DNA from: Opitutaceae bacterium
GTDB lineage: Bacteria > Verrucomicrobiota > Verrucomicrobiia > Opitutales > Opitutaceae
DNA length: 64,000 nucleotides
Direction of reading: 5' to 3'
NCBI GenBank assembly: GCA_030648295.1
Contig: JAUSID010000097.1
Location: forward strand, 1 to 64,000
Positions 10,291-36,717 of this stretch are shown here, in pieces; position 1 is the stretch's first letter; the number at the start of each line of letters is the position of its first letter. A program made the position numbers and the translations under genes. Below the pieces are notes generated by a model. It was not told the origin of the DNA, searched no databases, and was given only the letters and a program-made list of their open reading frames with translations.

Positions 10291-13200
10291 ATGGTCGAGC
10301 CCGACTCAATCTATCCGCTCACTCCTCTCCAGCACGGCATGCTGTTCCACAGCCTGGCCGCGCCGCGCTCGGGCGTGGACATCGAGCAAATGCTCTGGGA
10401 TTTACCCCAGCGGCAACTCGCCGCGCTCAAGCGCGTCGAGCCCCTCGTCGCTTTGACCCTGCTTTTCCCTTTCTTTGCCTCCCGTGCCGCGATCTGGCTT
10501 AGCCTGCTCTCCTCCTGCTTCGTCCTGCCTTTCGCCCTTGCCCAGCCTTACGGGATCACTTCGCGGCCGTCGATCGGCCCTTATCTGAACAACCTCCTGC
10601 CGTCGGGTGCGCCTGTGGCGGCGGGGGCGTGGCAGACCGTGAAGGCCTTTCCGAACCTGACGTTTGCCACTCCGACTTTTTTGGTCGCGGAGCCCAACAG
10701 CAACCGTCTCCTCGTTGGCGGCGACCAAGGGTTGATTTGGGTCTTCGACAACAATCCCAGCGCATCGACCAAGAACGTCTACCTCGATCTCCGTGCGCAC
10801 TGCCAGGGTTACAATGGCTCGGGCCTGCTCGGCCTCGCCTTCCATCCGGAATACGGGAAGGCCGGCTCGCCGAATCGCGGCTTCCTTTACGTCTCCTACC
10901 AATACACGCCTGGACCAGTAAAAGGTTCGCCCGACGCGCCTCCGGATCATAGCACCACGCCTTCCTACAACCGCATCTCACGCTTCTGGGTGCAGGATGG
11001 TTACACCAACGCCGATCTCTCCTCGGAGTTCGTTCTAATCAACCAATTCGATCGCCACCTGTGGCACGGCGGCGGCGCCATGTTCTTCGGGTTGGACGGT
11101 TTCCTCTACGTGACTGTCGGCGACGAGGGCGGGCAGGCCGACGATTATGACCAAAGTCAGCGCATCGATCTCGCGCTCTTCGGCGGCGTTTTGCGGATCG
11201 ACGTGGACAACAATCCGAGCCGCAGCCACCCCATTCGCCGGCAACCGCGCAGCGCCACCACCCCGCCCGCCGGCTGGCCCGCGACCTACAGCGCCGGTTA
11301 TTCGATCCCCAACGACAATCCCTTCCTCGATCCCAGCGGCGGCATCCTCGAGGAGTTTTGGTGCATCGGACTGCGCAGCCCGCACCGCATGACGCAGGAT
11401 CCCACGACCGGCCAGGTCTGGGTCGGGGATGTCGGCAACGGAGGGTGGGAGGAGATTGATCTCATTCAGAAGGGCGCCAACTACCAGTGGCCTTGGCGGG
11501 AGGGCGACCATCCCGGTTTTAAGCCCCAACCGTTCTCGATCACCGGCGTGAGCACGGCGCCGTTCTACAATTATTCGCACGACAAGGGTAACAACTGCGT
11601 CATCGGCGGCTACGTTTATCGCGGCTCGCAATTCGCCGCGCAGCTCACGGGCCGCTACATTTTCGGCGACAACATCTCCAATCGCATCTGGTTCCTGGAT
11701 CCCTACGGTCCGCCCACTCAGATCTTCACCGAACTCACCACGCTTCCGCCCGGCGTCGAATACATCGGGGGCCTGTCTTCGTTCGGCCTCGATCGCAACA
11801 GCGAGCTGTATATGTGCACGACGGGCGAGACCGCCTCCATTTACAAGCTGCAGTATTCCGGCCTGCCCACGCCTCCGCTGCCTCCGCTGCTTTCGCAGAC
11901 CGGTGCGTTCTCCGATGTGAAGACCCTCGCGCCGGCGACGGGCGTCATTCCCTACACCGTCAACGTCCCGTTCTGGTCCGACGGCGCCGCGAAAAGCCGC
12001 TGGCTGGCGGTGCCGACCGGCACGGCGATCCGTTTTTCCCCGACCGGCGAGTGGACCTTTCCGTCGGGCACGGTCTTCATTAAACATTTCGAGTTGCCCG
12101 TCGACGACCGCAATCCGGCGATCCGGCGGAGGCTCGAGACGCGGCTCATCGTGCGTGACTCCGGCAATGGCATTTACGCCGCGACCTACAAATGGCGCGC
12201 GGACAACAGCGACGCGGACCTGCTCCCCGGCGCCCTGAGCGAGAACCTCACGATCGCCACCGCGGGCGGCACACGGACGCAGACGTGGGATTACCCTTCT
12301 CCTCATGAGTGCATGCTCTGCCACAACCCGAATGCGAATTCCATCATCGGGGTGAGAACGCGGCAGCTCAATGGCACCCTCACCTATCCGGCGACCGGCG
12401 TGAGCGACAACCAACTCCGCACGCTCAGCCACATTGGCCTGTTCGATCCGGCGGTCAGCGAGAGCGGCATGGCCAATTACGCGCGCCTGGCCCCATTGAC
12501 GGATACTTCCGCATCCGTCGTCACGCGGGTCCGCTCCTACCTCGACGCCAATTGCGCGCAATGCCACCGCCCGAACGGCGGCCAGACTTTCTGGGATGCG
12601 CGTTTCGACACGCCGCTCGAAGCGCAGGGCATCGTCGACGGAAAGGTCGAGAACAACCACGGCATCGTCGACGCGCGGGTCGTGGCTCCGGGCAGCCTTT
12701 CCCGTTCGCTGCTTTACCTGAGGATGAATTCCACGGATTCCCATCGGATGCCCCCGCTCGGACGCAACCTCATCGATGCGGAGGCCGTCGCGCTGATCGC
12801 CAGCTATATTTCAACCGTGAGCGCACTTCCGGTGCTCCAGATTCCCGGACACCTCACGAATATTTCCGGCCGCGCCGTCGCAGGCACCGGCAACCAGACG
12901 CTCATCGCCGGATTCGTCGTCGGCGGTTCCGGCACGAAAACCATCCTCGTCCGCGGGATCGGCCCCGCGCTGATCGGGTTCGGGTTGGGCGATGCGCTGA
13001 GTGACACCGTCCTCAAGGTGGTCAACGCCCAGGGTTCAATCCTCCTCCAGAATGACAATTGGGGCGACGGCGGAGATGGTCAGCCGATCTCGTCGACAGC
13101 CGCCAACCTCGCGGCATTTTCGCTGGCCGCGGGCAGCCGGGACGCCGCCGCACTCGTCACGCTTGCGCCTGGAGCCTACACCGCCCAAGTCACCGGCGTT

Positions 13201-13659
13201 GGCGGCGCCAGCGGCGTGGCGCTCGCGGAGGTTTACGATGCGAATCCGTCCTCGACCGCGGCAATCCTGACGAATTTTTCGCTCCGCACGCAGGTCGGAA
13301 CCGCCGCGAACATCCTCATCGCTGGCTTTGTCGTCGGCGGGGAGCTTCCGGTGAAGGTGCTCATCCGCGGCATCGGGCCGTCGCTCGCGCAGTTCGGCGT
13401 CGGTGGAGTGCTCGTGGATCCCCAGCTCAACATCTTCAATTCAGTGGGAACCGCGATCGCCTCGAACGACAATTGGAGCGATGTCGACGCCGCGAACCTC
13501 GCCGAGACCGCACGGGCCGTGGGGGCGTTCGCGCTGACGGTGGGAAGCCGCGACGCCACGCTGCTCCTCACGCTGGCGCCCGGCGCCTACACCGCGCATC
13601 TCATGGGCGTGGCCAACGCCACCGGCGTCGGAATGATCGAACTCTACACGGTGCCCTGA
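10291..13659 (+). CDS. Secreted sorbosone-dehydrogenase-like / cytochrome c protein with NRPS scar
   Basis: About 1122 residues from this ATG. Residues 1-40 (IYPLTPLQHGMLFHSL, then SGVDIEQMLWDL) are the first lines of an NRPS condensation domain and end abruptly. A signal-like hydrophobic segment (TLLFPFF...LSLLSSCFVLPFALA) follows, so the original secreted protein probably began there, for example at the TTG at 10453. Next come a beta-propeller of the glucose/sorbosone dehydrogenase type (HGGGAMFFGLDGFLYVTVGDEGG), a cytochrome-like region with two haem c motifs (CMLCH about 674, CAQCH about 755), and two copies of the EVYD-ending repeat module. The role is probably periplasmic or extracellular oxidation of a sugar-type substrate. 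The stop is 3 bases before the NRPS gene. The start is uncertain; an in-frame ATG also exists at 10198. Confidence 0.8.
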   Translation: MVEPDSIYPLTPLQHGMLFHSLAAPRSGVDIEQMLWDLPQRQLAALKRVEPLVALTLLFPFFASRAAIWLSLLSSCFVLPFALAQPYGITSRPSIGPYLNNLLPSGAPVAAGAWQTVKAFPNLTFATPTFLVAEPNSNRLLVGGDQGLIWVFDNNPSASTKNVYLDLRAHCQGYNGSGLLGLAFHPEYGKAGSPNRGFLYVSYQYTPGPVKGSPDAPPDHSTTPSYNRISRFWVQDGYTNADLSSEFVLINQFDRHLWHGGGAMFFGLDGFLYVTVGDEGGQADDYDQSQRIDLALFGGVLRIDVDNNPSRSHPIRRQPRSATTPPAGWPATYSAGYSIPNDNPFLDPSGGILEEFWCIGLRSPHRMTQDPTTGQVWVGDVGNGGWEEIDLIQKGANYQWPWREGDHPGFKPQPFSITGVSTAPFYNYSHDKGNNCVIGGYVYRGSQFAAQLTGRYIFGDNISNRIWFLDPYGPPTQIFTELTTLPPGVEYIGGLSSFGLDRNSELYMCTTGETASIYKLQYSGLPTPPLPPLLSQTGAFSDVKTLAPATGVIPYTVNVPFWSDGAAKSRWLAVPTGTAIRFSPTGEWTFPSGTVFIKHFELPVDDRNPAIRRRLETRLIVRDSGNGIYAATYKWRADNSDADLLPGALSENLTIATAGGTRTQTWDYPSPHECMLCHNPNANSIIGVRTRQLNGTLTYPATGVSDNQLRTLSHIGLFDPAVSESGMANYARLAPLTDTSASVVTRVRSYLDANCAQCHRPNGGQTFWDARFDTPLEAQGIVDGKVENNHGIVDARVVAPGSLSRSLLYLRMNSTDSHRMPPLGRNLIDAEAVALIASYISTVSALPVLQIPGHLTNISGRAVAGTGNQTLIAGFVVGGSGTKTILVRGIGPALIGFGLGDALSDTVLKVVNAQGSILLQNDNWGDGGDGQPISSTAANLAAFSLAAGSRDAAALVTLAPGAYTAQVTGVGGASGVALAEVYDANPSSTAAILTNFSLRTQVGTAANILIAGFVVGGELPVKVLIRGIGPSLAQFGVGGVLVDPQLNIFNSVGTAIASNDNWSDVDAANLAETARAVGAFALTVGSRDATLLLTLAPGAYTAHLMGVANATGVGMIELYTVP

Positions 13660-13662
13660 GCG

Positions 13663-16600
13663 ATGAAGCCGCCGGCAAACGAACTGCTCGAGCGCCGGTC
13701 GAACCTCTCGGAGGGCAAACGGGACTTGCTGGAAAAAAGGCTGCATGGTCAGACGAGGCCGGGGGCGGGAGGGCTCCTGATCGCTCCGCGCGAGAAAAAC
13801 AATCGCGCGCCGCTTTCCTCCGCGCAGCAGCGCATGTGGTTTTTCAGCGAACTGCAACCCGGCAGCGCGGTATATAACATTCCCTTCGCGCTGCGGTTGA
13901 AGGGAGAGTTGAATATTCCGGCTCTGCGCGCGGCGCTGGACGCCATCGTCCTCCGCCACGAAATCCTGCGCATCCATTTTGTCGCGGAAAGCGGGTCGCC
14001 GGTTCAGATCGTCACCGCAGCCGGGCCCGTGGCATTGCCCCAGACCGATCTGAGCGGTGAACCGGCAGTCCAACGCGAAGAGATCCTGCAGCGACTGCTC
14101 GCCGAGGAATCCCGCCGGCCTTTTGATCTCGGTCGCGACTTGATCGTGCGGGCAACGCTGGTCCGCCTGGAAGAGGATGAGCATGTCCTCACGCTGGTCA
14201 TCCACCACATCGCATCGGACCTTTGGGCGTGGGGCATTTTGCTGAGCGAGTTCGGCGCACTTTACGCCGGCTTCGCCGCCGGGAAGCCGGCCGCCTTGCC
14301 GGCGCTGGCAATCCAATACGCGGACTATGCGGCGTGGGAGCGGAGCTGGCTCGGCAGCCCGGCCATCGCCAGGCAGCTCGCGTACTGGAAACAAAAGCTC
14401 GCCGGCGCCTCGACCCTGCTCGACCTGCCGACCGATCATCCGCGGCCCGCGGCCATGAGCTTTCGCGGCGCACTTGCCCGGCATTCGCTGCCGCCCGCGG
14501 TGGTGGAAGCGCTGAAGCAATTGAGCCGGCGCGAAGACGCCACCTTGTTCATGACCTTGCTGGCGGCTTTCAAGGTGCTGCTCTTTCGCCTCACGCAGCA
14601 ACCTGATGTCATCGTGGGCGTGCCAACCGCCGGACGCACCCAACCGCAAACCGAAGGGCTGATCGGATTGTTCGTGAACACCCTGGCGGTGCGGAACGAT
14701 TTGTCCGGTGACCCGGCCTTTCACGTTCTCCTGCAGGACGTCAAAACGGCCACCGTCGAAGCGCTCTCCCACCAGGATCTGCCGTTCGACAAACTGATCG
14801 AGGAGCTGAGACCCGCGCGCACGCCCGGATATTTGCCGCTGGTCCAAGTAATGTTCACGTTGCAGGCTGCGGTGAACCACGGCGTCCACCTGCCCGGTTT
14901 GAGCGTGACGCCGATCGAAATCGATCCGGGCACGGCGAGATTCGACCTCACGCTCGTGGCCGAACAGAAAACCGACGGCCTCGATCTCGTGCTGGAATAC
15001 AGCACCGACTTGTTCGAGGCGGCCACGGTCCGGCGCATGCTCGGGCAATTCCAAACGTTGCTGGAAGGCATCGTCGCCGATTCGCGACAGCGCATCTCCC
15101 AACTACCGATCCTCACAGCCGCGGAGCGCCACCAACAACTGGTGGAATGGAACCGCACGCACGTGGATTTTCCGCGCGATTCCGGCTTGCACCAATTGTT
15201 CGAGGCCCAGGCGGTATTGCACCCGCAGCGGGAAGCGCTCGTGGCCGGTTCGCGCCGTCTCACCTATCGCGAACTGAACGAACGCGCCGACCAACTCGCC
15301 TGTCATCTCCGCAAGCTGGGCGTGGAACGCGAGACACGCGTCGCGGTTTTTCTCACGCGCGATGCCGAGATGGTGATCACCCTGCTGGCAATCCTCAAAG
15401 CCGGCGGCGCTTACGTCGCCCTGGATCCGGCCTATCCGCTGGAACGCCTGGCGTTCATCCTGCAGGATTCGTGCGCCGCCATCGTCGCCACGCAGCGCAG
15501 CCTGGTGCCAGCGCTTCCGCCCAGTTCGGGCAAGATTGTCGTGGTCGATGAACTGCCGGCGTCGAGCCGCGACGTTGACTCGATGTCGTGGGTCCCGACC
15601 GCCGCGCACGATCACGATCTCGCTTATGTCATTTACACGTCTGGATCCACGGGACGACCCAAGGGCGTCGCGATCGAACATCGCAACGCGGTCGCGTTCG
15701 TGCGCTGGGCCGAGACTGCGTTCAGTGCCCGCGAACTCGCGGGCGTGCTGGCCGGCACCTCGATCTGTTTCGATCTGTCGGTCTTCGAAATTTTTGTGCC
15801 GCTCAGCGTCGGCGGTAAAATCATCCTCGCCGAAAATCCGCTCGCGCTGCCCGGTCTTCCGGCGGGCAACGAAGTCCGGCTGATCAACACGGTGCCGTCC
15901 GTGATGAGGGAAGTGCTGCGACTCGGCCTTCCCACGTCCGTCGAGACCGTGAATCTCGCCGGCGAGCCACTGCCGGCGGATCTCGTGGATCAACTTTACG
16001 CGCTCACCCACATCAAGGTCGTCTACGATTTGTATGGGCCCACCGAGACCACGACGTATTCCACGTTCACGCGCCGCGAACGCCGTGCCCGTCCGAGCAT
16101 CGGACGTCCGATCGCGAATACCGAGCTTTACGTGTTGGATCGTCATTTGGAACCGGTCCCCATCGGCGTGACGGGGGAATTATTTATCGGCGGCCGCGGC
16201 GTCGCGCGCGGCTATCTCGATCGGCCCGCGCTCACCGCCGAGCGATTCATCGCCCACCCGTTTTCGGCACAGCCCGACGCCCGCCTCTATCGCACGGGTG
16301 ATCTCTGCCGCTACCGGCCGGACGGGAATGTGGACTACCTCGGTCGCAGCGACGACCAGATCAAGATTCGCGGCTTTCGCATCGAGCCGGCCGAAATCGA
16401 ATCGGCCTTGCGCGCCCACCTGGGGATCGTGGACGCGGTCGTCGTGGTGTCCGAACGCGGCACGGGCGAGCGACGACTCCTCGCCTACGTCGTGTCCAAA
16501 CCCGTGGTGGAGCGCGAATGCGACGTGGATTTCCGAGCGTTTTTGCGACGGACGCTGCCCGAGCCGATGATTCCGTCGGCCTTTATTCCGGTCGACGCGA

Positions 16601-17769
16601 TCCCGCGCACCGCGAATGGAAAAGTGAATCGGTCCGCCTTGCCGGACGCCGGCGCCGTCAACGCCGATCCGACGCGAACCCACCTCGCGCCGCGCGATCA
16701 ACTGGAAACCCAGCTCGTGGAAATCTGGGAGACGGTGCTGGGCACCAAGCCGATTGGCGTAAACGATCGTTTCTTCGATCTGGGCGGACACTCACTGCTC
16801 GCCGTCCGCCTGGCGTCGGTGATTGAAAAATCACTCGAATGCCGCCTGCCCGTCGCCGCGCTTTTTCAAGCTCCGTCGATCGCGGAGCTCGCAGCGGTGA
16901 TGCGCGCCCGCGGCCAGCCGGCGCCACTGGCGCTCGTGGCGCTGCAGCCGAAAGGTCACCGCCCGCCCCTCTTTCTTGCGCATGCGATGGGCGGAGGAAA
17001 TCTGTGGGGCTACGCCAACATCGCGCGCGAGCTCGGCGACGAGCAACCGGTTTACGCCTTCAAGCCGTGCGAACCGGAACAGCTCGCCGCCTTTCCGACG
17101 ATCGAAAGCATGGCGACGCACTATCTTGACGAGATGCGGCGCATCCAACCGCACGGCCCCTATCGCCTCGGCGGCTACTGTTTTGGCGGCAACATCGCTT
17201 ACGAAATGGCATGTCAACTCGAGGCAGCGGGAGAAACGGTGAGCGTGCTGGCCTTGCTGAACGCGTGGCCGGCGAATGGCGGCCACGATCGCATCACCTG
17301 GTCTCCGCGCACGGCCGTCAAGTTTACGGTCAACGTGGGCTACTGGACGATGCGGTGGTGGCAATGGCCGGTGAAAACGCGGCTCCGCTTCTTCAGTTGG
17401 AAAGCGCAAACGGCCAAAAAGAAAATCTCCCGCTGGCTCGGCGGCCGCAGGCCCCGCCGCGAGAGCGAGGTCGAACTCCTGGTCGATCTCTCGGATGTCT
17501 CGGCGGGCGAGCGGAAACTCTGGCAAGCCCACCTGCGGGCTTTGCGCGGGTATCATCCGCGGCCCTACGGCGGTAAAATCACGCTCCTGCGCACCACCGG
17601 CTATCCCTTTTACTCCTCGTTCGACTACGCTCACGGCTGGCGCGCGCTCGCGGGCGAACGGGTCGCGGTGCGATTGGTTCCGGGCATGCACGAAACGCTC
17701 ATGGTCGATCCGTTCGTGGCGTCGCTCGCGCGCGAGTTGAAGAGCGTACTTGGAGTTCAGTGCCAATGA
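13663..17769 (+). CDS. NRPS module C-A-T-TE, alanine-type code
   Basis: 1368 residues. Condensation domain about 45-480 with HHIASDL (H181, H182, D186; the usual Gly after Asp is Leu). Adenylation domain about 500-990 with YTSGSTGRPKG, YGPTE, YRTGD and NGKVNR. Reading the ten pocket positions by eye gives D-L-F-N-N-A-L-T-Y-K, which I recall as an alanine code. The carrier domain has LGGHSLL (Ser1044). Thioesterase about 1100-1368 with GGYCFGG, so Cys1173 replaces the usual Ser, and His1343 in GMHETL. A basic, Trp-rich insertion (about 1215-1265) sits in the lid. One module ending in a TE implies the chain is released here. The upstream partner supplying its donor is not adjacent; the gene follows the secreted oxidoreductase by only 3 bases. 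Confidence 0.93.
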   Translation: MKPPANELLERRSNLSEGKRDLLEKRLHGQTRPGAGGLLIAPREKNNRAPLSSAQQRMWFFSELQPGSAVYNIPFALRLKGELNIPALRAALDAIVLRHEILRIHFVAESGSPVQIVTAAGPVALPQTDLSGEPAVQREEILQRLLAEESRRPFDLGRDLIVRATLVRLEEDEHVLTLVIHHIASDLWAWGILLSEFGALYAGFAAGKPAALPALAIQYADYAAWERSWLGSPAIARQLAYWKQKLAGASTLLDLPTDHPRPAAMSFRGALARHSLPPAVVEALKQLSRREDATLFMTLLAAFKVLLFRLTQQPDVIVGVPTAGRTQPQTEGLIGLFVNTLAVRNDLSGDPAFHVLLQDVKTATVEALSHQDLPFDKLIEELRPARTPGYLPLVQVMFTLQAAVNHGVHLPGLSVTPIEIDPGTARFDLTLVAEQKTDGLDLVLEYSTDLFEAATVRRMLGQFQTLLEGIVADSRQRISQLPILTAAERHQQLVEWNRTHVDFPRDSGLHQLFEAQAVLHPQREALVAGSRRLTYRELNERADQLACHLRKLGVERETRVAVFLTRDAEMVITLLAILKAGGAYVALDPAYPLERLAFILQDSCAAIVATQRSLVPALPPSSGKIVVVDELPASSRDVDSMSWVPTAAHDHDLAYVIYTSGSTGRPKGVAIEHRNAVAFVRWAETAFSARELAGVLAGTSICFDLSVFEIFVPLSVGGKIILAENPLALPGLPAGNEVRLINTVPSVMREVLRLGLPTSVETVNLAGEPLPADLVDQLYALTHIKVVYDLYGPTETTTYSTFTRRERRARPSIGRPIANTELYVLDRHLEPVPIGVTGELFIGGRGVARGYLDRPALTAERFIAHPFSAQPDARLYRTGDLCRYRPDGNVDYLGRSDDQIKIRGFRIEPAEIESALRAHLGIVDAVVVVSERGTGERRLLAYVVSKPVVERECDVDFRAFLRRTLPEPMIPSAFIPVDAIPRTANGKVNRSALPDAGAVNADPTRTHLAPRDQLETQLVEIWETVLGTKPIGVNDRFFDLGGHSLLAVRLASVIEKSLECRLPVAALFQAPSIAELAAVMRARGQPAPLALVALQPKGHRPPLFLAHAMGGGNLWGYANIARELGDEQPVYAFKPCEPEQLAAFPTIESMATHYLDEMRRIQPHGPYRLGGYCFGGNIAYEMACQLEAAGETVSVLALLNAWPANGGHDRITWSPRTAVKFTVNVGYWTMRWWQWPVKTRLRFFSWKAQTAKKKISRWLGGRRPRRESEVELLVDLSDVSAGERKLWQAHLRALRGYHPRPYGGKITLLRTTGYPFYSSFDYAHGWRALAGERVAVRLVPGMHETLMVDPFVASLARELKSVLGVQCQ

Positions 17770-17911
17770 GTTCTTAGCCCGCATTTTTCACCCTCTTCGT
17801 GCCCTTCAATGTCCTGTTGCCCTCGATCATAATTTCGCCCTTCACTGCCCTCGAGTTCATGCGGCTAAGAGCATTCTGCTGACCAGCAGAACGACGATCT
17901 CAAGACCCAGG

Positions 17912-18320: not shown

Positions 18321-18451
18321 TTGTCTTGTTGCGGTTGCCGCGGTGGGAAATCTCCCGGTTAGCAGGACCTCGGGCCGCAGGTAGGGACAGACCCCACGTT
18401 GACCGGCGATGGGAGAGGAACCGCGGGGAGGCGACGCGCCTCGATACTCCC

Positions 18452-20182: not shown

Positions 20183-21382
20183 CCTTCGATCTCCAATCCG
20201 TTGACACAGGCTGCCGTGCGAAATGTCTGGTCGCGACCGGCCCGCGGCCTCCTCCACGAAGCCTCGCCCCAAAATGTGTTCATGCACCTGCGTCGTGCCT
20301 TCGATCATTTCCATGATTTTGCTCGCGCGGAAAAAACGCGCGACCGGCGACGACTCGTGACAACCCGCGGCGCCGTGGATCTGGATCGCATCGGCCGCCG
20401 CGCGCACCGCCGCGCGCGACGAAAAATATTTCGCCATCAAGGCCTGGGTGTAACTCTCGGGCCGATGCTCGTCCTTCGCGCGGCAGGCGCTCCAGCAGAG
20501 AAGCTTTGTCGCCTCGAGATCGACGCCCATCCGGGCAATCATGGATTGAATCATCCCGAGATCGCCGATGCGTTGCGCGCCGGCGCTGCGCGTGGCGGCG
20601 TAGGTGGTGCTTTCTTCAAAACAGCCGCGCAACAGGCCGAGTGCAGAACACGCGGTGCTGATCCGGCCGAAGTGCATTGCGACGGGCACCACGTGCGAAA
20701 AGGCGAAGCCGGGTTTGCCGACCATGTTCGCCCCCGGCACGGGCACGTCGTGAAACCGCAGCCCGGCCATGCCCGCGGCACGAAATCCCAGCATATTCCT
20801 AATCGGCTCGACTTCGAGTCCGACACTTTCCCGCGGCACCAGACAGGCGACGGGCTTTTCGTCCACCTTGCCGAAGATCAAGAAAACATCCGCGGCCTGC
20901 CCACCGCTGATCCATTTCTTTTCTCCGTTCAAGATTAACTCGTCGCCCCGACCGGAGCGCGTGAAGCGCGTGGTCATGGCATTGAGATCGCTTCCGCCGG
21001 CGGGTTCCGTCAGCGCGATGGCGCCAATTTTTTCCCCTCGGGAGAGCGGAGGCAGCCACTCGCGTCGTTGAGCGGCCGTGCCCCATTTCAAGAGCGCCAT
21101 GCTGATCATCGCGTGAACCGTGACGAAGCCCGTGTAGGCGGAGTCGTGGCGGCCCAGCGCTTCGTTCAGCAGGCCGAAGGTCACCGTGTCCCAATCCTGC
21201 CCACCGTACTCCGTTGGCAGCGTCGCGCCCAAATACCCGGCCCGACCCAGGTCTAGGATCGCGGAGCGTGGAATCTCCTGCGCCGAATCCCACTCGGCCA
21301 CATGCGGCGCGACGTGCGTCGCCGCGAATGCCTGGAATTCCTCGCTCCGCCGCTGCTGTTCGGTGGTTAAGTACAGCTTCAT
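20126..21382 (-). CDS. Acyl-CoA dehydrogenase, FkbI-like
   Basis: 418 residues with the acyl-CoA dehydrogenase layout: LPTEYGGQDWDTV, ALTEPAGGSDLNAM, KKWISGGQAADV, and IQIHGAAGCHESSPVARFFRASKIMEMIEGTTQVHEHILGRG. The family normally ends near HILGRG; about 45 extra residues run on into the end of the convergent gene, so the true end may be earlier or frameshifted. It is last in the six-gene operon, 18 bases after the ACP. In methoxymalonyl-ACP pathways (FK520, ansamitocin) FkbI-type enzymes oxidise the glyceryl-derived carrier-bound substrate, and the adjacent FkbJ, FkbK, FkbH and FkbM homologues support that role over general fatty-acid oxidation. Confidence 0.88.
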   Translation of the reverse strand: MKLYLTTEQQRRSEEFQAFAATHVAPHVAEWDSAQEIPRSAILDLGRAGYLGATLPTEYGGQDWDTVTFGLLNEALGRHDSAYTGFVTVHAMISMALLKWGTAAQRREWLPPLSRGEKIGAIALTEPAGGSDLNAMTTRFTRSGRGDELILNGEKKWISGGQAADVFLIFGKVDEKPVACLVPRESVGLEVEPIRNMLGFRAAGMAGLRFHDVPVPGANMVGKPGFAFSHVVPVAMHFGRISTACSALGLLRGCFEESTTYAATRSAGAQRIGDLGMIQSMIARMGVDLEATKLLCWSACRAKDEHRPESYTQALMAKYFSSRAAVRAAADAIQIHGAAGCHESSPVARFFRASKIMEMIEGTTQVHEHILGRGFVEEAAGRSRPDISHGSLCQRIGDRRLFDLVNLDQRLSRTAAHA

Positions 21383-29500: not shown

Positions 29501-31167
29501 TCGAAGCGTTCGTAGAGGCCGCGTCCCATGCCGACGTAGTGGTCGCCCATGCCGGGCAGCAGAAACACGACCGGCGGAGCGCCGTCCCGCGGCACGCTGC
29601 CGGAAACCGCCTTGGTTGAACTCTTGCCGCGCAGCGCTCCCGCCGCATCCTCGCATCCCTGACTCACGACAAAGCGCCGGTGCGCAAACAATCGCCGGCC
29701 GGTTTGCAGCGTGTGAGCAACGCGCGAGAGAAAATCGCCATCCGCGTCTTTCGCGGGCGGCGAATCCAGCACGTCCGCGAAATTGCGCGCCGCGGCGTCG
29801 AGTGCAGTGGGCGTCTTCGCCGAAATCACCAAGAGGTGCGGGCCGGATGGGGCGGGGACGGCCGGAGCGACCGCGGCCGGCGCTTCTTCGAGCACGACAA
29901 AAGCGTTGGTGCCACCCATCCCCGTGGCCATGACGCCGGCCCGACGCGGCAGTCCGTCGTCGCGCCACTCCTGCGCCTTCGCGCTGACGAAGAACGGCGT
30001 CGTGGGAAAATCGATTTCCTCGTTGGGCTTCGTGAAGTTCAGCGTCGCGGGAATGCGCCGGTGCTGCAGCGCAAGCACGGTCTTGATGATTCCCGCCATG
30101 CCGGCAGCGGCGTCGAGGTGGCCGACGTTCGTCTTGACCGAGCCAATCGCGCAATAGCTCGTGCGCGGCGTGAAATTTCGAAACGCCTTCGTGAGCGCCA
30201 GCAACTCGATCCGATCGCCCACGGGCGTGCCCGATCCATGGGCCTCCACGTAGGAAATCTCCCCCGCATCGACGCCGGCGTTGGCGAGCGCCTCGACGAC
30301 GGCCGCCGCCTGGCCATTCACGCTTGGCGCCGTGTAGCCCGCTTTGTCCGCGCCATCATTGTTGATTGCGGAGCCTTTGATGACGGCGTGAATTCGATCG
30401 CCCTGCGCGAGCGCATCGGCGAGTCGCTTCAGCACCAGCACGCCGGCGCCGCTGCCGAAAACGGTGCCGTTGGCTGCGGCGTCGAACGCGCGCACATGTC
30501 CATCGCGCGAGACCACGCCGCTGCCATCGTAGAAATAGCCCGCCCGATGCGGCACCCGCACAGAAACGGCGCCCGCGAGCGCCATGTCCGTCTCTTCGTT
30601 GAGGAGACTTTGCCGGGCAAGATGGACCGCCACCAAGGAGGTCGAGCAAGCGGTCTGCACCGTGAGGCTCGGGCCGCGCAGCCCAAGCTTGTAGGAGATC
30701 CGGGTCGCGAGGAAATCCTTGTCGGTGGCGACCAGGGTCGGGATGTAGTTTTCGGCGAACCCGCCCTCGAATCCCCGGTTCAGAAAATAGGTGTTCATCG
30801 CTGAGCCGGCAAAAACCCCGATCGGGCCGCGATAGCGGCCGGGATCGCAGCCCGCATCTTCCAACGCAATGTGGGCCAGTTCGAGCAGCAGCCGATGTTG
30901 CGGGTCCAGCGTGGCGGCCTCGCCCGGCAAATATCCGAAGAACGCCGCATCAAATAATCCAGGGTCGTCCAGCACCGCGGCGGCCTTCACATAGTCGGCC
31001 CGCGTGAGAACATCGGGTGACACGCCCGCCGCGATGATCTCCTCGTCGGAAAGCCGCGCGATGGACTCGTTTCCCTGCGCAAGGTTTTGCCAGAACTCCT
31101 CCACGTTGCGAGCACCGGGAAAGCGCGCCGCCATGCCGACGATCGCGATATCAAATTCACTGTCCAT
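26497..31167 (-). CDS. Type I PKS module KS-AT-KR-ACP
   Basis: 1556 residues. KS about 1-430 with Cys174 (TACSTS), His309 (EAHGSGT) and His350 (KTNVGHLD). AT about 530-850 with Ser653 in GHSMGEY and HAFH at about 750-753; HAFH is the malonyl-CoA signature of AT domains, whereas methylmalonyl ATs show YASH. KR about 1100-1400 with TGGTGGLG, Ser1332, Tyr1345 and Asn1349; the LDD motif of B-type KRs is not seen (HAAGILREGL). ACP about 1465-1540 with LGGHSLL (Ser1499). There is no DH in the chain; a DH opens the next gene product. The start MDSEFDIAIVGMAARF overlaps the end of the adenylation gene by 11 bases. The KS presumably extends a seryl or related donor. Confidence 0.94.
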   Translation of the reverse strand: MDSEFDIAIVGMAARFPGARNVEEFWQNLAQGNESIARLSDEEIIAAGVSPDVLTRADYVKAAAVLDDPGLFDAAFFGYLPGEAATLDPQHRLLLELAHIALEDAGCDPGRYRGPIGVFAGSAMNTYFLNRGFEGGFAENYIPTLVATDKDFLATRISYKLGLRGPSLTVQTACSTSLVAVHLARQSLLNEETDMALAGAVSVRVPHRAGYFYDGSGVVSRDGHVRAFDAAANGTVFGSGAGVLVLKRLADALAQGDRIHAVIKGSAINNDGADKAGYTAPSVNGQAAAVVEALANAGVDAGEISYVEAHGSGTPVGDRIELLALTKAFRNFTPRTSYCAIGSVKTNVGHLDAAAGMAGIIKTVLALQHRRIPATLNFTKPNEEIDFPTTPFFVSAKAQEWRDDGLPRRAGVMATGMGGTNAFVVLEEAPAAVAPAVPAPSGPHLLVISAKTPTALDAAARNFADVLDSPPAKDADGDFLSRVAHTLQTGRRLFAHRRFVVSQGCEDAAGALRGKSSTKAVSGSVPRDGAPPVVFLLPGMGDHYVGMGRGLYERFEVFRQEVDRCAQFLQPILGADIRDGLFPPGEEKADAPAVPRGIDLKRMLGRGTNESSTPAGQNLERTITNQPVLFTVEYALARLWMHWGVEPERLVGHSMGEYVAACLAGVFSLEDALRLIAVRAQLVNDLPSGAMLAVMLPERDVLPLLGPALSIALINGPNLCVVAGPVAAIADFQNALKELGAIFRPVRNRHAFHSRMLDPMVDAFANHVEQVRLSAPRIPFISNITGTWITAEQAVDPRYWAEHARSTARFSDALEQVWKLSDRTFIEVGPGRTLGVLAMQHPARPAGRSPLIVSSLRHDYENQPDAEFILNSLGRLWLVGTDIAWGQLEPPAARQKISLPTYPFERLSCWIGPRASRRPESGRAKADLADWCYVPSWQRTDFFTGEPGEEKSPHPLWLIFADEPALAEQLCGLLVERNSDVVVVRFGSSHARTSEDAWEIRPACFEDHVKLFAAIKGRAAGGLNVIHLGAISPRVKPPGAGHDPHSEELGFHSLMTFAQALGEQNIGAPVCLAAVTAQVHEVTGEESLNPAGATVVGLSGVIPKEYPGVTSFAIDLPDVAPAEEWAPRLLDEFRHPAKGRVIAYRGRFRWERTFRAEKLPALAMRSGGQAPFANGLRTKGVYLITGGTGGLGRAIAKHLAQTCQARLVLTQRTPFPAKAEWKSRLASGALSDSEKRIVEALLEIEALGGEVEVHACEVSDQAGMRRVVAEIMVGHGALHGVIHAAGILREGLIQLKTRDVAEAVLRPKVQGTAVLFDVVRDLNPDWIVLFSSVSSVAAYHGQGDYCAANAFLDAFVHYANAHADFPTIAINWPAWREVGILTEMKTPAGLEGRRETVRQQAILTKDGVEMFQRIVAAKMPQVIVSPRDLEFVIAEAAAPLPEAGPRDDGIAAPAAMQRTGVVDEPRDEVEKAVAAIWIAALSMAPIGVHESFLDLGGHSLLAMRIVAQIRAAYQIDFTLRQFFESSTIAGTALAIQAEVLAEIESLPEEAASRPAS

Positions 31168-32788
31168 TGGTGACAGAAGCTTTCGGTCTTGGCACCGGCT
31201 CCGGCAATGCCTTGCGATCAACCTTGCCGGTAGCCGTCAGGGGAAGGGCCGCGATTTCCTCAAAATGGCTCGGCACCATATATTCGGGAAGGAGTCGCTG
31301 CAGATGCTGCTTGAGCGCCGCCTGATCGATTTTCTGCCGGGCGACGAGATAGGCCACGATCACCACGATGCTTTCCGAATACGCTTTCGTCACGACGACG
31401 CAGTCGGCGACCGCGGGGAATTTCCGGATATTGTTTTCGATCTCACCCAGTTCGATCCGCAGGCCCCGGATTTTGACCTGGTGATCTTCGCGGCCCAGAT
31501 ACTCGAGGTTGCCGTCGGGCAACCAGCGCGCGAGATCGCCCGTGCGATAGATCCGCTCGCCGGGCACCGCGGGGTTTTCCACGAACCGTTCGGCGGTGAG
31601 TTTCGGATTGTTCAGATAGCCCCGGGCCAGACCCACGCCCGCGAGCCAAAGTTCACCCGTCTCGCCGACCGACATCGGCTTCCCCTCCCGCATGACATAG
31701 GCTCGAATGTTCTGAATCGGCCGGCCGATCGGCACGCAGTCGAGATCGCCTTCGGTGGGACAATCGAAATAAGTCACGTCCACGGTCGCCTCGGTCGGTC
31801 CGTATAAATTGGTCAACCGGCAACCCGTGGCTTCACCGATCACGTCGTTGAACTTTCGTGCATGCGCGGGGCTGAGGGCCTCGCCGCTGGCGAACACCCG
31901 GCGCAACGAAGACAGCGAGCCCGACACTTTTTCAGGCCGGCCGTCCAAGTATTCGAGGAAGACGCTGAGCATCGAAGGAACGAAGTGCAGCACACTCACG
32001 CGATGCTTCCGGATCGTCTCGAGCAACGACTGCGGCGCGCGTTCGCCATGAGGCCGGAGCAGGCAAAGCGAGGCTCCTTCGATCAGCCCCCAAAACAACT
32101 CCCACACCGACACGTCGAAATAGTAAGGAGTCTTCTGCAGGAGCACGTCCCCTTCACCGATCGGGTAGGCCTGCTGCATCCAGTGGAGTCGGTTGACCAC
32201 CGAGCGGTGTTCGATCATCACGCCCTTGGGCTTTCCGGTGGAGCCCGACGTGTAGATCACGTAGGCGAGATCGTCCGGGCGATTGACCAGCGCAGGGTTG
32301 GTGATCGGGCCGGCGAAAACGTGCGGGGCCTCAATGTCAATCACCCGCACATCTGCGGGCTCCTTCGTGGCGGTGGCGCCATGCACCAGCACGACGCGCA
32401 CTCCGGCATCCGCCAGGATGTAGGCGATTCTTTCCGGTGGATCCTCCGGCGAGAGCGGCAGGTAGGCCCCGCCGGCCTTGAGCACCCCATGGATGCCGAT
32501 GAGCATCGCGAACGACCGTTCCGCCAGGATCGCGACGATATCCCCCGGAAGCACTCCGTCGTCGCGCAACCGATGCGCGAGCTGGTTGGCTTTTTCGTTC
32601 AGCCGCTCGTAACTGAAGGTCGAAGTTCCCCCAACAGGATCGTGGTCGCAGATCACTGCGGTCTGAAGCGGGCGTTGCCGGACCTGCGCCTCGAACAACT
32701 CCTGAAGCGTGATCTGATCGGGAAAGTCTCGAGGCGCGGGGTTGAAATCAGCGATTCGGTCCGGACTGTTTTCGATCATTTCAACCAT
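31157..32788 (-). CDS. Stand-alone NRPS adenylation enzyme, serine-type code
   Basis: 543 residues, a single A domain: YTSGSTGKPKGV, YYFDVSVWELFW, NLYGPTEATVDVT, YRTGDLARWLPDG, KIRGLRIELGEIE and TATGKVDRKALP. Pocket positions read by eye give D-V-W-H-F-S-L-V-D-K, which matches the serine code I remember. The protein stops at TNGQ shortly after A10, where a carrier domain would normally start, so seryl-AMP must be passed to a carrier in trans. It is first in the six-gene operon. The divergent orphan carrier gene starts only about 30 bases away. ATG and stop positions show tight coupling to the PKS. Confidence 0.92.
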   Translation of the reverse strand: MVEMIENSPDRIADFNPAPRDFPDQITLQELFEAQVRQRPLQTAVICDHDPVGGTSTFSYERLNEKANQLAHRLRDDGVLPGDIVAILAERSFAMLIGIHGVLKAGGAYLPLSPEDPPERIAYILADAGVRVVLVHGATATKEPADVRVIDIEAPHVFAGPITNPALVNRPDDLAYVIYTSGSTGKPKGVMIEHRSVVNRLHWMQQAYPIGEGDVLLQKTPYYFDVSVWELFWGLIEGASLCLLRPHGERAPQSLLETIRKHRVSVLHFVPSMLSVFLEYLDGRPEKVSGSLSSLRRVFASGEALSPAHARKFNDVIGEATGCRLTNLYGPTEATVDVTYFDCPTEGDLDCVPIGRPIQNIRAYVMREGKPMSVGETGELWLAGVGLARGYLNNPKLTAERFVENPAVPGERIYRTGDLARWLPDGNLEYLGREDHQVKIRGLRIELGEIENNIRKFPAVADCVVVTKAYSESIVVIVAYLVARQKIDQAALKQHLQRLLPEYMVPSHFEEIAALPLTATGKVDRKALPEPVPRPKASVTNGQ

Positions 32789-32818
32789 TAGGGATTTGGA
32801 CGCAGACTTCCAAGAGGG

Positions 32819-33166
32819 ATGGAGGTTGCCTCAATCGTTGAGACCGTAATTTGCGCCGAAGTGAACGGGGGTGAGCACCCCACATCTCCGGCAGCGCGTT
32901 CCGGGTCAAATGCTGCTTCGTGCACGGCGGACAATTTTTTCGCGCTCGGCGGACATTCGCTCCTCGCAATGCGCGTCGTGGCGCGCGTCCGGACAGCGTT
33001 TCAGATCGAACTGCCGATGAAGGACGTTTTTGAAGCCCCCACGCTGGCCAAGCTCGCCAGCCTCATCGAGGATTTGCTCCTTGCGCGCATCTCCGCCCTG
33101 AGCGAAGGGGAAGCACGGCGCGCCAATGAACCGGAACCCCTCCCGGCCACAACGCTCATCGCCTGA
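32819..33166 (+). CDS. Orphan peptidyl carrier protein
   Basis: 115 residues. The second half is a clear carrier domain (DNFFALGGHSLLAMRVVARV, then VFEAPTLAKLASLIEDLL) with the phosphopantetheine Ser. Residues 1-38 match poorly to helix I of carrier domains (at best VETVICAEVNG), so the 5' end may be degenerate or replaced. The stop overlaps the PPTase start (TGATG). Position suggests it accepts serine from the divergent adenylation enzyme, which lacks its own carrier. Alternatively it is the relict tail of a lost NRPS module. AGAGGG lies immediately before the ATG. Confidence 0.75.
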   Translation: MEVASIVETVICAEVNGGEHPTSPAARSGSNAASCTADNFFALGGHSLLAMRVVARVRTAFQIELPMKDVFEAPTLAKLASLIEDLLLARISALSEGEARRANEPEPLPATTLIA

Positions 33167-33831
33167 TGCTTTCACCCGCCCACGACCGATGGCCAGCGCC
33201 ATCACCGCCGCACTTCCTCGAGCCGGATGAGGCGCACGTCTGGCGCACTTCCCTGCTTGCGTCGGACGCGCACATTGACGCGTTCGCCCAAACCTTGTCG
33301 GCGGACGAACGCGAGCGCGCGGCTCGTTTTCGTTTTGCCATTCATCGACGGCGATTCGTCGCCGGCCGGGGGAAGTTGCGCTCGCTGCTCGGCCGGTATC
33401 TCGGCCACGCCCCCGCCGATCTGGAATTCGCCTACAGCCCGAACGGGAAACCGTCCCTCGCGAGGTCTCCGAATGCGCGTTCCCTCTTTTTCAACGCCAG
33501 CCACACCGAGGACTGCGCGATGATTGCGGTCACTTGGGTGGGCGAGATCGGAGTGGATGCCGAACAGGTGCGGCCGATTCCCGAGTGGCGGGACATCGCG
33601 CGATGCATCCTCGCGCCCGATCCTGACGCCGAGATTCCATCGACGCTCCACGAGTTTTTCAAGGAGTGGACACGCCATGAAGCCCGCGTGAAAGCGACCG
33701 GGCTTGGTTTGGGCGGGCAACCGGCCGGCGAGGGAAAATTGGCCGTGCATTCGCTTTCGCTCGAAAAGGATCTGTTCGCGGCCGTCGCATTTCCAGCCGG
33801 CGTCAAAAATTTCACCGTAGCGGGGTTCTGA
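33166..33831 (+). CDS. Sfp-type 4'-phosphopantetheinyl transferase
   Basis: 221 residues. Signature blocks of the Sfp/HetI group: FNASHTEDCAMIAV, GVDAEQ and EWTRHEARVKATGLGL (usual form WTRKEAxxKxxGxGL). It converts apo carrier domains to holo form with CoA. At about 220 residues it fits the Sfp length. It is translationally coupled to the orphan carrier gene and sits among at least six carrier domains in this region, so it is the likely activator of the whole pathway. Confidence 0.93.
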   Translation: MLSPAHDRWPAPSPPHFLEPDEAHVWRTSLLASDAHIDAFAQTLSADERERAARFRFAIHRRRFVAGRGKLRSLLGRYLGHAPADLEFAYSPNGKPSLARSPNARSLFFNASHTEDCAMIAVTWVGEIGVDAEQVRPIPEWRDIARCILAPDPDAEIPSTLHEFFKEWTRHEARVKATGLGLGGQPAGEGKLAVHSLSLEKDLFAAVAFPAGVKNFTVAGF

Positions 33832-33840
33832 CTCCGTCGG

Positions 33841-33911
33841 TTCTGGGTTCTGGGTTTCGCGTTTCGGGTTTCGTTTCGTTTTGTCTCCTGTCTCCTGTCT
33901 CCCGTCTCCTC
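33841..33911. repeat. Word-repeat spacer before the broken NRPS
   Basis: Variants of GGTTCTGGGTT and GGGTTTCG are followed by four copies of a GTCTCCT/GTCTCCC unit. This is a low-complexity direct-repeat spacer of the same style as those at 7352, 61823 and 63008, between the PPTase and the NRPS fragment. Confidence 0.6.
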
Positions 33912-34009
33912 CAGCATCTGCTCCGCCTCAACGGAGGTCTTCGCCCCACCCACCGCGGCGGCGCAAACCGGTCAGGGATGTCGCTACGGATGTCTCGCGG
34001 CCTTTCTTC

Positions 34010-34657
34010 ATGGTCGCACCCAGCCCTCTTCTCGCGCGTAGCGCCGATCTTTCGAATGCAAAGCGCGCCCTCCTGGACAAACTGCTGGCAAATGCCAGCG
34101 CGGCCGCCGTTGCACCAGAGATTCCGCGCCGGCCTTCGGGGGCGAGCGTGCCGCTTTCATTCTCGCAGCAAAGCCTTTGGTTCTTTCATCAGCTGGATCC
34201 ACAGAGTCCGCTCTACCACCTACCCATCGCGTTGCGGCTCGCGGGACCGCTCAATCTGACGGCGCTCCAGCAGTCACTTAACACGATCGTCGCCCGGCAC
34301 GAAATCCTGCGGACGTGCTACGTCGTCGTGGACGAGACACCGACGCAACACGTTGAACCGGCGAGCGAGGTCCCGTTCTCCGCCATCGACCTGAGCACCC
34401 AGGCAGTCGAGGGACGCGAGTTGGCCGTCCGCGCCTTGATCGATCAGGAATGCCGACGGCCCTTCGATCTCACGCATGAGCCGCTGCTGCGGGCGCTGCT
34501 CGTTCGCACCACCGAGACGGAGCACACGCTCGTGCTGAGCACGCACCACATCGCCGCCGACGGCTGGTCGTGGGGAATTTTTTTCCGCGAACTCGCCGAG
34601 CTCTATGGCGCCGCCACCGCCGGCCGGGCCCGCCGGCTTCGACGCGTCGACCTTTGA
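34010..34657 (+). pseudogene. NRPS condensation-domain fragment (5' part of broken module)
   Basis: From this ATG, 215 residues. After a short leader (LSNAKRALLDKLLANAS) comes the first half of a condensation domain: PLSFSQQSLWFFHQLDP, ARHEILRT and the intact active site HHIAADGWSWG. Homology ends at AELYGAATAG; the frame then reads about ten unrelated residues to a stop. In the related NRPS at 13663 the domain continues for about 290 more residues. The next 2.1 kb resume an NRPS in another frame at adenylation motif A4. The missing stretch (second half of C, first half of A) would be about 1.5 kb or more. Either a real deletion or an assembly collapse over GC-rich sequence fits. Confidence 0.85.
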
Positions 34658-36689
34658 AATCTGGGGAGCGCTCCTGAACGGCGGCCGGCTCGTCGTCCAT
34701 CCGCCGGGCACGCCGTCGCTGGCGGAACTCGGGCAATTCATTGCCGACCGCCGCATCACGACGCTCTGGCTGACGGCCGGACTTTTCCACGCGCTCGTCG
34801 ACCATTCGCTGGACTCGTTGCGCCATGTGCGGCAGCTGCTCGCCGGCGGCGACATCCTCTCGCCGGCGCACGTGGAAAAAGTGCGGCACGCTTTTCCGCT
34901 TTGCCGGCTGATCAATGGCTACGGACCGACGGAAAACACGACCTTCACGTGCTGCCACACGATTACGGCGGTGGAGGGCGCGATTCCGATCGGCCGGCCG
35001 ATCGCCAACACGGAGGTGTACATTCTCGATGAGGCGAGGCAGCCCGTGCCGATTGGCATCGCGGGGGAGCTGTGGGTCGGCGGCGATGGGCTTGCCCGCG
35101 GTTACCTGAATCAACCCGAACTCACCGCCGAAAAATTTGCCGCCCAACCGTTCAAGACCGGGGAGCGGCTTTATCGCACGGGCGATCAGGCGCGTTATCT
35201 CGCTGATGGCGTGATCGAGTTTCTCGGCCGCCGCGATGGCCAGGTGAAGCTGCTCGGCTTCCGCGTGGAACTCGGGGAAATCGAAATCCGGCTGGCGCGC
35301 CATCCCGGGGTGCTTGCGTGTGTGGTGACCGCACCGCCCGACGCCACCGGCGGGCGGCGGCTCGTGGCGCACATTGTCCCGGGGGGCACCGCGCCGACCG
35401 CCGGCGAGTTGCGCACATTCCTCCAAACGTCATTGCCCGCCCACATGGTGCCCGCCGCCTTCACGTTTCTGTCGCAATTTCCGCTGACCCCGAATGGCAA
35501 AGTCGACCGGGGTGCCCTGCGGGCACCGGAAGCAGATGCCGGCAAACCACCGGGTGGTGCGACGGCTCCGCGCGACTTGTGGGAGGAAAAAATGGCCAGC
35601 CTCTGGGAAACGGTGCTTGGCGTTTCGCCCATCGCCGTCACGGACCGGTTCTTCGACCTGGGCGGACATTCGCTGCTGGCGATCCGCCTCGTCGCGCAGA
35701 TTGAAAAAACCTTCGGGCGGCGGCTCCCGGTGGCTACGGTGTTTCAGGCGCAGTCGGTCGAGCAACTGGCGGCCATCGTGCGCGAAAATCGCTCGCCGGT
35801 TCCGGGCCGGTCGCTGCTGGCGATCCAGCCGAACGGAGGCCGCTTGCCGCTCTACCTCGTGCACGGCGTCGGCGGCGGCATGCTCTGGGGCTACATCAAC
35901 CTCTCGCGGCACCTCGGCAACGACCAACCGGTGTATGTCTTCCGCTCGAACTGGGCGACCGGCGGGATTCGGTTCGAGACGATCGAGGAGATGGCCACCC
36001 GTTATGTGCGCGAGTTGCGGACGTTTCAACCGCAAGGCCCGTATTCGCTCGGCGGTTACTGCTTCGGCGGCAACGTCGCGTTCGAGATGGCGCGACAGCT
36101 GGAGTCACAGGGGCAGAAAATTGCCACGCTGGCGCTGATGAACTGTTCGCCCCCGAACTCGGATTATTACCGCTTCCGTTGGTCGCCGGCCGGCCTGGCC
36201 CGCTTCGGCGTCAATCTCGCCGTCTGGCTGATCGATTTCATCGGCTGGGACGAGCAGATCCGCCGGCACTACGTGCGCTGGAAGCTCGGGCAGGGCAAGC
36301 GCCGGGTGGCGGCGTGGTGGCAGCGTAACGACAAAACGGATGCGGAGGCCGGTTCCGGCGAAATCGTCAATCTCGCCGGACTGCCCGATGAACAGCGTCA
36401 GCTCTACAAAGTCCACCTGCGGGCGCTGACGAGCTACCATTGCCAGCCGTATGGCGGAGCGGTGACTCTTTTCCGGACGCGCGGTCATCCGCTGGTGAGC
36501 TCATTTGATGCGCATTATGGCTGGGATGAATTCGCGCGCGGTGGCGTGACGCTGCGCCGCATGCCGGGCGGCCACGACAGCCTGCTCCAGGAGCCGCACG
36601 TGCAAGCCGTCGCGAGCACCCTGTCGGCCGCAGGATCGCCGAACGCGGCGCAACCGCTGGTAAAGCCCGCAAATGGCTTGCAGAGCTGA
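34605..36689 (+). CDS. NRPS fragment A(partial)-T-TE, valine-type code
   Basis: 694 residues if started at the first ATG, which lies in the junction and is probably not native. It begins inside adenylation motif A4 (FDASTFEIWG) and lacks A1-A3, including the ATP-binding YTSGSTG loop, so it cannot adenylate on its own. The remaining pocket positions read D-A-F-W-L-G-G-T-F-K, a valine code as I recall it. Carrier LGGHSLL (Ser356); thioesterase GGYCFGG (Cys486) and GGHDSL (His657), with the same long basic lid as the 13663 product. The final codons (PANGLQS) lie in a segment nearly identical to a transposase 3' end, so the native C-terminus may have been replaced. Confidence 0.85.
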   Translation: MAPPPPAGPAGFDASTFEIWGALLNGGRLVVHPPGTPSLAELGQFIADRRITTLWLTAGLFHALVDHSLDSLRHVRQLLAGGDILSPAHVEKVRHAFPLCRLINGYGPTENTTFTCCHTITAVEGAIPIGRPIANTEVYILDEARQPVPIGIAGELWVGGDGLARGYLNQPELTAEKFAAQPFKTGERLYRTGDQARYLADGVIEFLGRRDGQVKLLGFRVELGEIEIRLARHPGVLACVVTAPPDATGGRRLVAHIVPGGTAPTAGELRTFLQTSLPAHMVPAAFTFLSQFPLTPNGKVDRGALRAPEADAGKPPGGATAPRDLWEEKMASLWETVLGVSPIAVTDRFFDLGGHSLLAIRLVAQIEKTFGRRLPVATVFQAQSVEQLAAIVRENRSPVPGRSLLAIQPNGGRLPLYLVHGVGGGMLWGYINLSRHLGNDQPVYVFRSNWATGGIRFETIEEMATRYVRELRTFQPQGPYSLGGYCFGGNVAFEMARQLESQGQKIATLALMNCSPPNSDYYRFRWSPAGLARFGVNLAVWLIDFIGWDEQIRRHYVRWKLGQGKRRVAAWWQRNDKTDAEAGSGEIVNLAGLPDEQRQLYKVHLRALTSYHCQPYGGAVTLFRTRGHPLVSSFDAHYGWDEFARGGVTLRRMPGGHDSLLQEPHVQAVASTLSAAGSPNAAQPLVKPANGLQS

Positions 36690-36717
36690 GGAAGGTAAAA
36701 GGTAAAGCATGACCCCA
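36669..36717 (+). repeat. RAYT 3'-tail copy at the NRPS 3' end
   Basis: This 49-base stretch matches 46723-46771, the 3' end of the decayed transposase, with about three mismatches. Both contain GCTGAGGAAGGTAAAAGG and then TAAAGCATGACCCCA. In the transposase frame it would read KWLAELRKVKGKA then stop. It spans the stop codon of the NRPS fragment. This is a mobile-element scar at the edge of the biosynthetic region. Confidence 0.85.

Follow-up and report, generated by a model that had tools for sequence, protein, structure and literature searches.

Gene content of the locus

The DNA analyzed here, a stretch of 64 kb referred to as the window, covers positions 1–64,000 of a 139.8-kb contig (JAUSID010000097.1) in a draft genome of an Opitutaceae bacterium (9.12 Mb in 294 contigs, 96.6% complete). 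It carries a small antibiotic-type gene cluster with no known product, in which nonribosomal peptide synthetase (NRPS) genes accompany a minus-strand operon of six genes with a polyketide synthase (PKS) module (Pfam and NCBIfam). As judged from sequence, the unusual building block of this cluster is more likely to be aminomalonyl derived from serine than methoxymalonyl.

The operon begins with a free-standing, ZmaJ-like serine-type adenylation (A) enzyme (31157–32788), consisting of an AMP-binding and a C-terminal domain with the specificity code DVWHFSLVD. This gene is followed by a PKS module with ketosynthase (KS), acyltransferase (AT), ketoreductase (KR) and acyl carrier protein (ACP) domains (26497–31167 from the chosen ATG; Pfam), whose AT motif reads GHSMGE ... 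HAFHS. The third gene (22565–26500; Pfam, NCBIfam and alignment) encodes a fusion of a dehydratase (DH), the N-terminal part of an FkbH domain, an FkbM domain, the HAD and remaining parts of FkbH, and an ACP. The last three genes encode an FkbK/ZmaG-like 3-hydroxyacyl-(ACP) dehydrogenase (21661–22551, starting at the ATG that is residue 40 of the listed open reading frame; Pfam 3HCDH), a discrete FkbJ/ZmaH-like ACP (21401–21664), and an FkbI/ZmaI-like acyl-ACP dehydrogenase (20126–21382; Pfam Acyl-CoA_dh domains). The discrete ACP scores below the cut-off of the NCBIfam ACP models and lies between FkbK and FkbI as in its relatives. With the chosen start codons, neighboring genes overlap by at most 11 nt or are separated by at most 18 nt. 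All six genes are open, and what we take to be the catalytic motifs are retained by eye: HxxxGxxxxP in DH, TACSTS in KS, the Y and N of KR, and DxDxT in HAD.

The pieces of a hybrid NRPS–PKS locus named in an earlier, sequence-only reading are all present (Pfam and NCBIfam), and their combination is as unfamiliar as that reading held. Megablast of 13663–36689 against plasmids returned nine records; among the rows listed, the top five span no more than ~1% of the query. On this basis, the idea that the cluster in its entirety closely matches a known one was rejected.

An FkbM domain within a long-type FkbH

The FkbH domain of the fusion protein matches TIGR01686 with 285.8 bits (cut-off 146.65); the glycerate-type FkbH noted earlier is supported. 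In an FkbH tree of 48 rows, limited to matches longer than 550 nt, 24 long FkbHs including that of the window are separated from 24 canonical free FkbHs with support of 100/100. Most of the long-type rows belong to proteins of several domains and have a carrier close by. Four of them (L020, L022, L026 and L027), in frames of 625–826 residues, make up a separate subclade, and "long type" is therefore a safer name than "loading type" for the clade as a whole. The FkbH of the window is of the long type and shares its protein with a carrier domain, as an in-cis FkbH loading module requires. A canonical free FkbH is located near FkbI in 18 of the 22 loci L047–L068, and none was seen in the DNA examined of L052, L057, L063 and L068. 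In the window's assembly, all eight candidates were scored and the fused domain is the sole FkbH match. The complete methoxymalonyl-ACP gene set proposed in the sequence-only reading was consequently rejected, as no free canonical FkbH was found in the assembly and its only FkbH belongs to the long-type clade.

The closest FkbH to that of the window (53%) occurs on an Aquisphaera plasmid (L149:7707-10718), in a protein that combines FkbH with a carrier and the beginning of a TE-like (thioesterase-like) match and that sits in a glycan gene neighborhood.

The reported fusion of DH, FkbM, FkbH and ACP is real, but its FkbM domain (TIGR01444, NCBIfam) lies inside FkbH, not ahead of it. The N-terminal part of FkbH spans residues ~290–370, FkbM ~395–650, and the remaining FkbH ~665–1105. 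In the relatives examined, the N-terminal part of FkbH (~75 residues) runs straight into the rest, whereas FkbM (~260 residues) lies between the two in the window. In four Streptomycetaceae plasmids (L145, L147, L148 and L213), FkbM is located just ahead of FkbH. In the three that were aligned (L145, L147 and L148), a weak FkbH N-terminal part, visible only in the alignment and missed by tblastn at 1e-3, lies in front of FkbM; in L213, FkbM lies 214 nt before FkbH. FkbM is nested in FkbH in the window and apparently also in these four plasmids. By comparison, the long FkbHs of G008, G098, G057, G134, L136–L144 and L149–L151 showed no insertion the size of a methyltransferase. Among 394 genomes of the Erwinia order drawn for relatives of OocJ, an FkbM match was present in none of 17 loci; the three Enterobacterales-type loci with a detected FkbH N-terminal part (L195, L196 and L211) show no insertion of that size, and in the other 14 the N-terminal part was undetected. 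These counts describe a sample and not a frequency: FkbH matched 89 plasmid records, of which six were taken (L145 and L147–L151), L146 was added for its FkbM match, and L213 came from a separate search.

The FkbM domain of the window is sister to a Burkholderia FkbM (98/97) and lies near the methyltransferases of FkbK-J-I-H clusters from Polyangium and Streptomyces (90/93), while the FkbMs of the Streptomycetaceae plasmids form their own clade (100/100) away from it. The separate clades suggest that FkbM was inserted twice, independently, at roughly the same FkbH site. Methyltransferases commonly sit within A domains, and the FkbM lineage of the window interrupts the A domains of eight plasmid loci (L212 and L214–L220) in their C-terminal part, near the position of residue 950 of the first NRPS (NRPS1), so that it acts like a mobile domain. 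The nested FkbM of the window carries this habit of insertion over to FkbH domains; among the papers listed in our literature search, none describes such nesting. The structure model of the nested region is poor, with a mean predicted local distance difference test score (pLDDT) of 54 and a predicted template modeling score (pTM) of 0.35, and is uninformative on the insertion.

In the Burkholderia ubonensis plasmid that carries the sister FkbM (L146:11725-13962), this domain lies, by eye, between FkbH-remnant-like segments and shares one frame with an isochorismatase-like part.

Lineages of the dehydrogenases, the A enzyme and the AT

Relatives of FkbI comprised the best 80 from named genomes (20 loci, L049–L068, at E of 2e-70 or better and 60 weaker), those of the window's phylum (3 of 337 genomes at 1e-70, its own included) and those on plasmids; a genome of the window's genus (G008), outside this tally, also has the set. 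Two gene arrangements served as anchors for an aminomalonyl-type set. Fulvivirga sediminis (L061) contains both an FkbH-ACP-FkbI set and an FkbK-ACP-FkbI set with a free serine A enzyme, and Erwinia oleae (L068) and two other members of its taxonomic order (L188 and L189) share the arrangement FkbK, ACP, FkbI, free AT and serine A enzyme. The FkbI of the window pairs with that of L061 in all three trees computed (98/86, 98/87 and, starred, 96/88) and is joined by L068 in the first (97/93) and the second (93/91). The second tree was computed without L064, L067, L073 and L075, and the third additionally without L152, L072, L074, L070, L071_11171, L154, L056 and L060. In the third tree, the window FkbI forms a group of five rows with all four anchors (94/90, not starred), while FkbIs from a hydroxymalonyl context (L061_5931, L190 and L191) belong to another clade (100/100).

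The FkbK of the window is sister to the Fulvivirga FkbK that adjoins the serine A enzyme (100/99) in a tree that leaves L188 and L189 outside. In both the FkbI and FkbK trees, an Opitutaceae metagenome-assembled genome (L065) groups with G008. The free A enzyme groups with those of the four anchor sets in a quick tree (Shimodaira–Hasegawa-like approximate likelihood ratio test, SH-aLRT, 87; not starred), and the in-line serine A domains of the Fulvivirga cluster fall outside this group. In the DNA examined, a free serine-coded A enzyme adjoins an FkbK-ACP-FkbI set in two of the 22 loci L047–L068 (L061 and L068), in addition to L188 and L189.

Two further observations concern these families. 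The zwittermicin-like cluster of F. sediminis (Bacteroidota; L061 and L192–L194) is large and includes sets of the amino- as well as the hydroxymalonyl type. A link to solanimycin through SolG, the best NCBIfam match of the A enzyme, was dropped; the paper does not contain the terms "aminomalonyl", "serine" or "acyl-CoA dehydrogenase".

The AT of the window groups as sister of 12 ATs, each with the motif GYS(V/I/L)GE (97/96; 38-row quick tree and 29-row careful tree). The quick tree was computed without L066, L067 and matches shorter than 600 nt, and the careful tree without nine more rows with long or trans-acting ATs. A canonical FkbK-J-I-H set accompanies ten of the 12 sister ATs; the surroundings of all but L156 and L157 were checked. 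The nearest rows by path include one GHS-type AT (L130_25).

NRPS and flanking genes

The intact NRPS1 (13663–17769, plus strand; Pfam and alignment) lies to the left of the operon and has the order condensation (C), A, thiolation (T) and thioesterase (TE). Its code, DLFNNALTY, presumably specifies alanine. On the other side, in the opposite direction to the operon and divergent from the A enzyme, lie an orphan peptidyl carrier protein (32819–33166, plus strand; PP-binding), a 4'-phosphopantetheinyl transferase (33166–33831, plus strand; AASDHPPT_N) and a broken NRPS (NRPS2; 33881–36689, plus strand; Pfam and alignment). NRPS2 consists of an N-terminal C fragment and an out-of-frame C-terminal A-T-TE part with the code DAFWLGG-- (DAFWLGGTF by eye), which we read as valine, as we read that of the free A enzyme as serine. 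By code alignment, the serine, alanine and valine specificities noted earlier are borne out, given these assumed readings. The C domain of NRPS2 breaks off at position 167 of the 456-position profile, and the A domain picks up, out of frame, at position 213 of 384, near 34619–34640; C has lost its end and A its start. The other five of the six C-domain matches in the genome are full length, and the lost part was therefore not found elsewhere in the genome.

In the thioesterases of both NRPSs (13663–17769, GYCFG; 34605–36689, GGYCFGG), cysteine replaces the nucleophilic serine, a less common type. The TE of a second NRPS–PKS locus in the same genome (contig C208 of G000; L044 and L045), whose NRPS shares 44% identity with NRPS1 across 1396 residues, also reads GGYCFG.

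An IclR-type regulator (36758–37678, plus strand; Pfam) may mark the right border of the cluster. To the left, a GSDH-family gene (10198–13659; Pfam) on the same strand as NRPS1 ends 3 nt upstream of its start. The region holds as an NRPS–PKS locus, but its left edge as drawn in the sequence-only reading takes in this gene, which is not obviously part of the cluster. GH9 cellulase-family genes flank the cluster on both sides (2459–7351 and 47598–50771).

Proposed supply of two unusual acyl units

We propose, with a probability of roughly 0.6, that the operon supplies two unusual acyl units, aminomalonyl-ACP made from serine and an O-methylated glyceryl unit loaded in cis. The free A enzyme would load L-serine onto the discrete ACP, and the FkbK- and FkbI-like dehydrogenases would oxidize the CH2OH of the seryl group to COOH, giving aminomalonyl-ACP. 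The fusion protein would load a glyceryl unit from glycolytic phosphoglycerate onto its own ACP, with the nested FkbM methylating the alpha-hydroxyl. The single PKS module would then join one of the two units, or malonate, to the chain, which the fused DH may dehydrate, and the single-module alanine NRPS would add its amino acid and release the product through the cysteine-type TE. We infer these reactions, the unit taken by the AT and the order of the modules from the observed gene content, gene order, codes and lineages; either unit could act as starter or as extender.

This proposal is supported by the serine code of an A enzyme encoded in one overlapping operon with FkbK, ACP and FkbI. The four gene kinds equal the aminomalonyl subcluster of zwittermicin, described in the available sections of PMC6395733 as a seryl-AMP synthetase, an ACP and two dehydrogenases: the free A enzyme with its presumed serine code is present, as are the discrete ACP and the 3-hydroxyacyl dehydrogenase in the same operon. 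The FkbI, FkbK and free A trees, the long type of the sole FkbH and the lineage of the AT also speak for it.

Several observations weigh against this proposal. The AT motif of the window, GHS/HAFH, is a malonyl-CoA pattern; in the portions of PMC4207774 available, the ATs of ZmaA and ZmaF read GYSFG and GYSLG, and the malonyl AT of ZmaK reads GHSIG/HAFH. A free ZmaF-like AT was not found in the 96.6% complete genome, which has two PKS ATs and one FabD-like AT, although all four anchors have a free AT (that of Fulvivirga in L193, in a 413-residue frame). These anchors are labeled by gene content and not by known products. By identity, the window FkbI is closest among the matches listed to canonical-set FkbIs (L050 and L131, 43%), with amino-type FkbIs at ~40% (L061) and 36% (L068). 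Of five diagnostic columns, defined as those in which the first two amino anchors share a residue that differs from the canonical consensus, the window has the amino residue in one, the canonical in three and another in one. In approximately unbiased (AU) tests, placing the window with FkbH-linked FkbIs of the same phylum gave p = 0.098 and 0.046, and a grouping of the amino rows minus the window gave p = 0.196, so that neither constraint is clearly rejected; long branches are involved in these comparisons. In addition, the amino-set FkbK of E. oleae is apart from that of the window. A free AT is not part of the four-gene subcluster definition, and that of E. oleae also reads GHS, so the motif is no strict rule. 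The lineage of the AT suggests an ACP-tethered extender and its motif malonyl-CoA. As this AT is sister to GYS-type ATs yet lacks their tyrosine, its carrier recognition is testable.

A more specific and doubtful version of the aminomalonyl proposal is that the PKS module condenses a 2-O-methylglyceryl starter made in cis with an aminomalonyl extender and reduces the product to a polyhydroxylated alpha-amino acid of the 2-amino-3,5-dihydroxy-4-methoxypentanoyl type, to be linked to alanine by the NRPS. If true, this would be a polyketide route to a sugar-acid-like amino acid that uses a methyltransferase nested in FkbH.

Alternatives to the aminomalonyl proposal

The FkbI, FkbJ and FkbK families of a methoxymalonyl set are all present, and the FkbM lineage, which includes methyltransferases of FkbK-J-I-H clusters, together with the AT lineage leaves room for a rearranged variant working through the fused FkbH. 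In such a variant, the fused FkbH(FkbM)-ACP would load and methylate glycerate, FkbK and FkbI would oxidize it and the AT would accept it, with the serine A enzyme only starting or feeding the peptide. The ten sister ATs in canonical loci and the higher identity of the window FkbI to canonical FkbIs fit this variant, and fused O-methyltransferases serve such units in chondrochloren and pellasoren, according to the relevant passages of PMC6395733. We nevertheless regard it as unlikely. No free FkbH was found in the assembly, and the fused FkbH is of the other lineage. FkbI, FkbK (with one of two amino rows) and the free A enzyme also fall with aminomalonyl-type sets, although not decisively. 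The GHS motif contrasts with GYS in 11 of the 13 loci in which a HAFH-type AT could be read alongside a canonical set, a point weakened by its two exceptions, G008 and L065, from the window's own genus and family. FkbH, FkbI, FkbJ, FkbK and a methyltransferase together need not imply methoxymalonyl-ACP; the extender-unit call shifts once the FkbH lineage and a free serine A enzyme are considered.

It is improbable that both oxidized units are made as in zwittermicin, one FkbK/FkbI pair acting on seryl-ACP and glyceryl-ACP. A serine A enzyme and FkbH do share one operon here, and, in the sections available of PMC6395733, both zwittermicin units are predicted to depend on a single FkbK. However, two ACP/acyl dehydrogenase pairs are described there and are also found in Fulvivirga L061, compared with one pair and one PKS module in the window.

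Equally improbable is a decaying cluster with no product. The out-of-frame disruption of NRPS2 and the absence of its lost part from the genome's condensation matches speak for decay. Against it, the operon genes are all open, with what we take to be the catalytic motifs kept by eye, and the break may be an assembly fault in a 294-contig draft.

Comparison with known systems

Our literature search found no paper that pairs verrucomicrobi- with aminomalonyl or FkbH; the available text of a marine actinomycete review (PMC2707044) contains verrucomicrobi- and methoxymalonyl once each. The palmerolide cluster, from an uncultivated member of Verrucomicrobiota, has been published (PMC8636102, available in part).

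Compared by gene kind, the operon resembles the ZmaJ/ZmaH/ZmaG/ZmaI set of zwittermicin in its free serine A enzyme, ACP, 3-hydroxyacyl dehydrogenase and acyl dehydrogenase. It differs in that no ZmaF-like free AT, canonical FkbH or second ACP/dehydrogenase pair was detected in the genome. The Fulvivirga cluster shares the sister FkbK and FkbI and a serine A enzyme of the same group, but it is much larger and contains two extender-unit sets and a free AT. The methoxymalonyl sets of the FK520 and ansamitocin type have in common with the window the FkbI, ACP and FkbK families, an FkbM-type methyltransferase and a related AT lineage, whereas FkbH and the methyltransferase are fused in the window, FkbH is of the long lineage and no canonical free FkbH was found.

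The domain order DH-methyltransferase-FkbH-ACP is already known from the first module of OocJ in oocydin A biosynthesis, compared here from its description in part of PMC4552970. According to that description, conserved motifs are missing from the DH and methyltransferase of OocJ and its module is believed to be inactive; by comparison, the motifs in the window are kept by eye. The FkbH loading domains of vioprolide and corramycin likewise load glycerate onto an in-cis carrier (available sections of PMC10099666 and PMC8949500). In those systems FkbH replaces the A domain after C, while that of the window follows a DH and carries FkbM, and the window would pair such an in-cis glycerate loader with an aminomalonyl-type supply set in one cluster.

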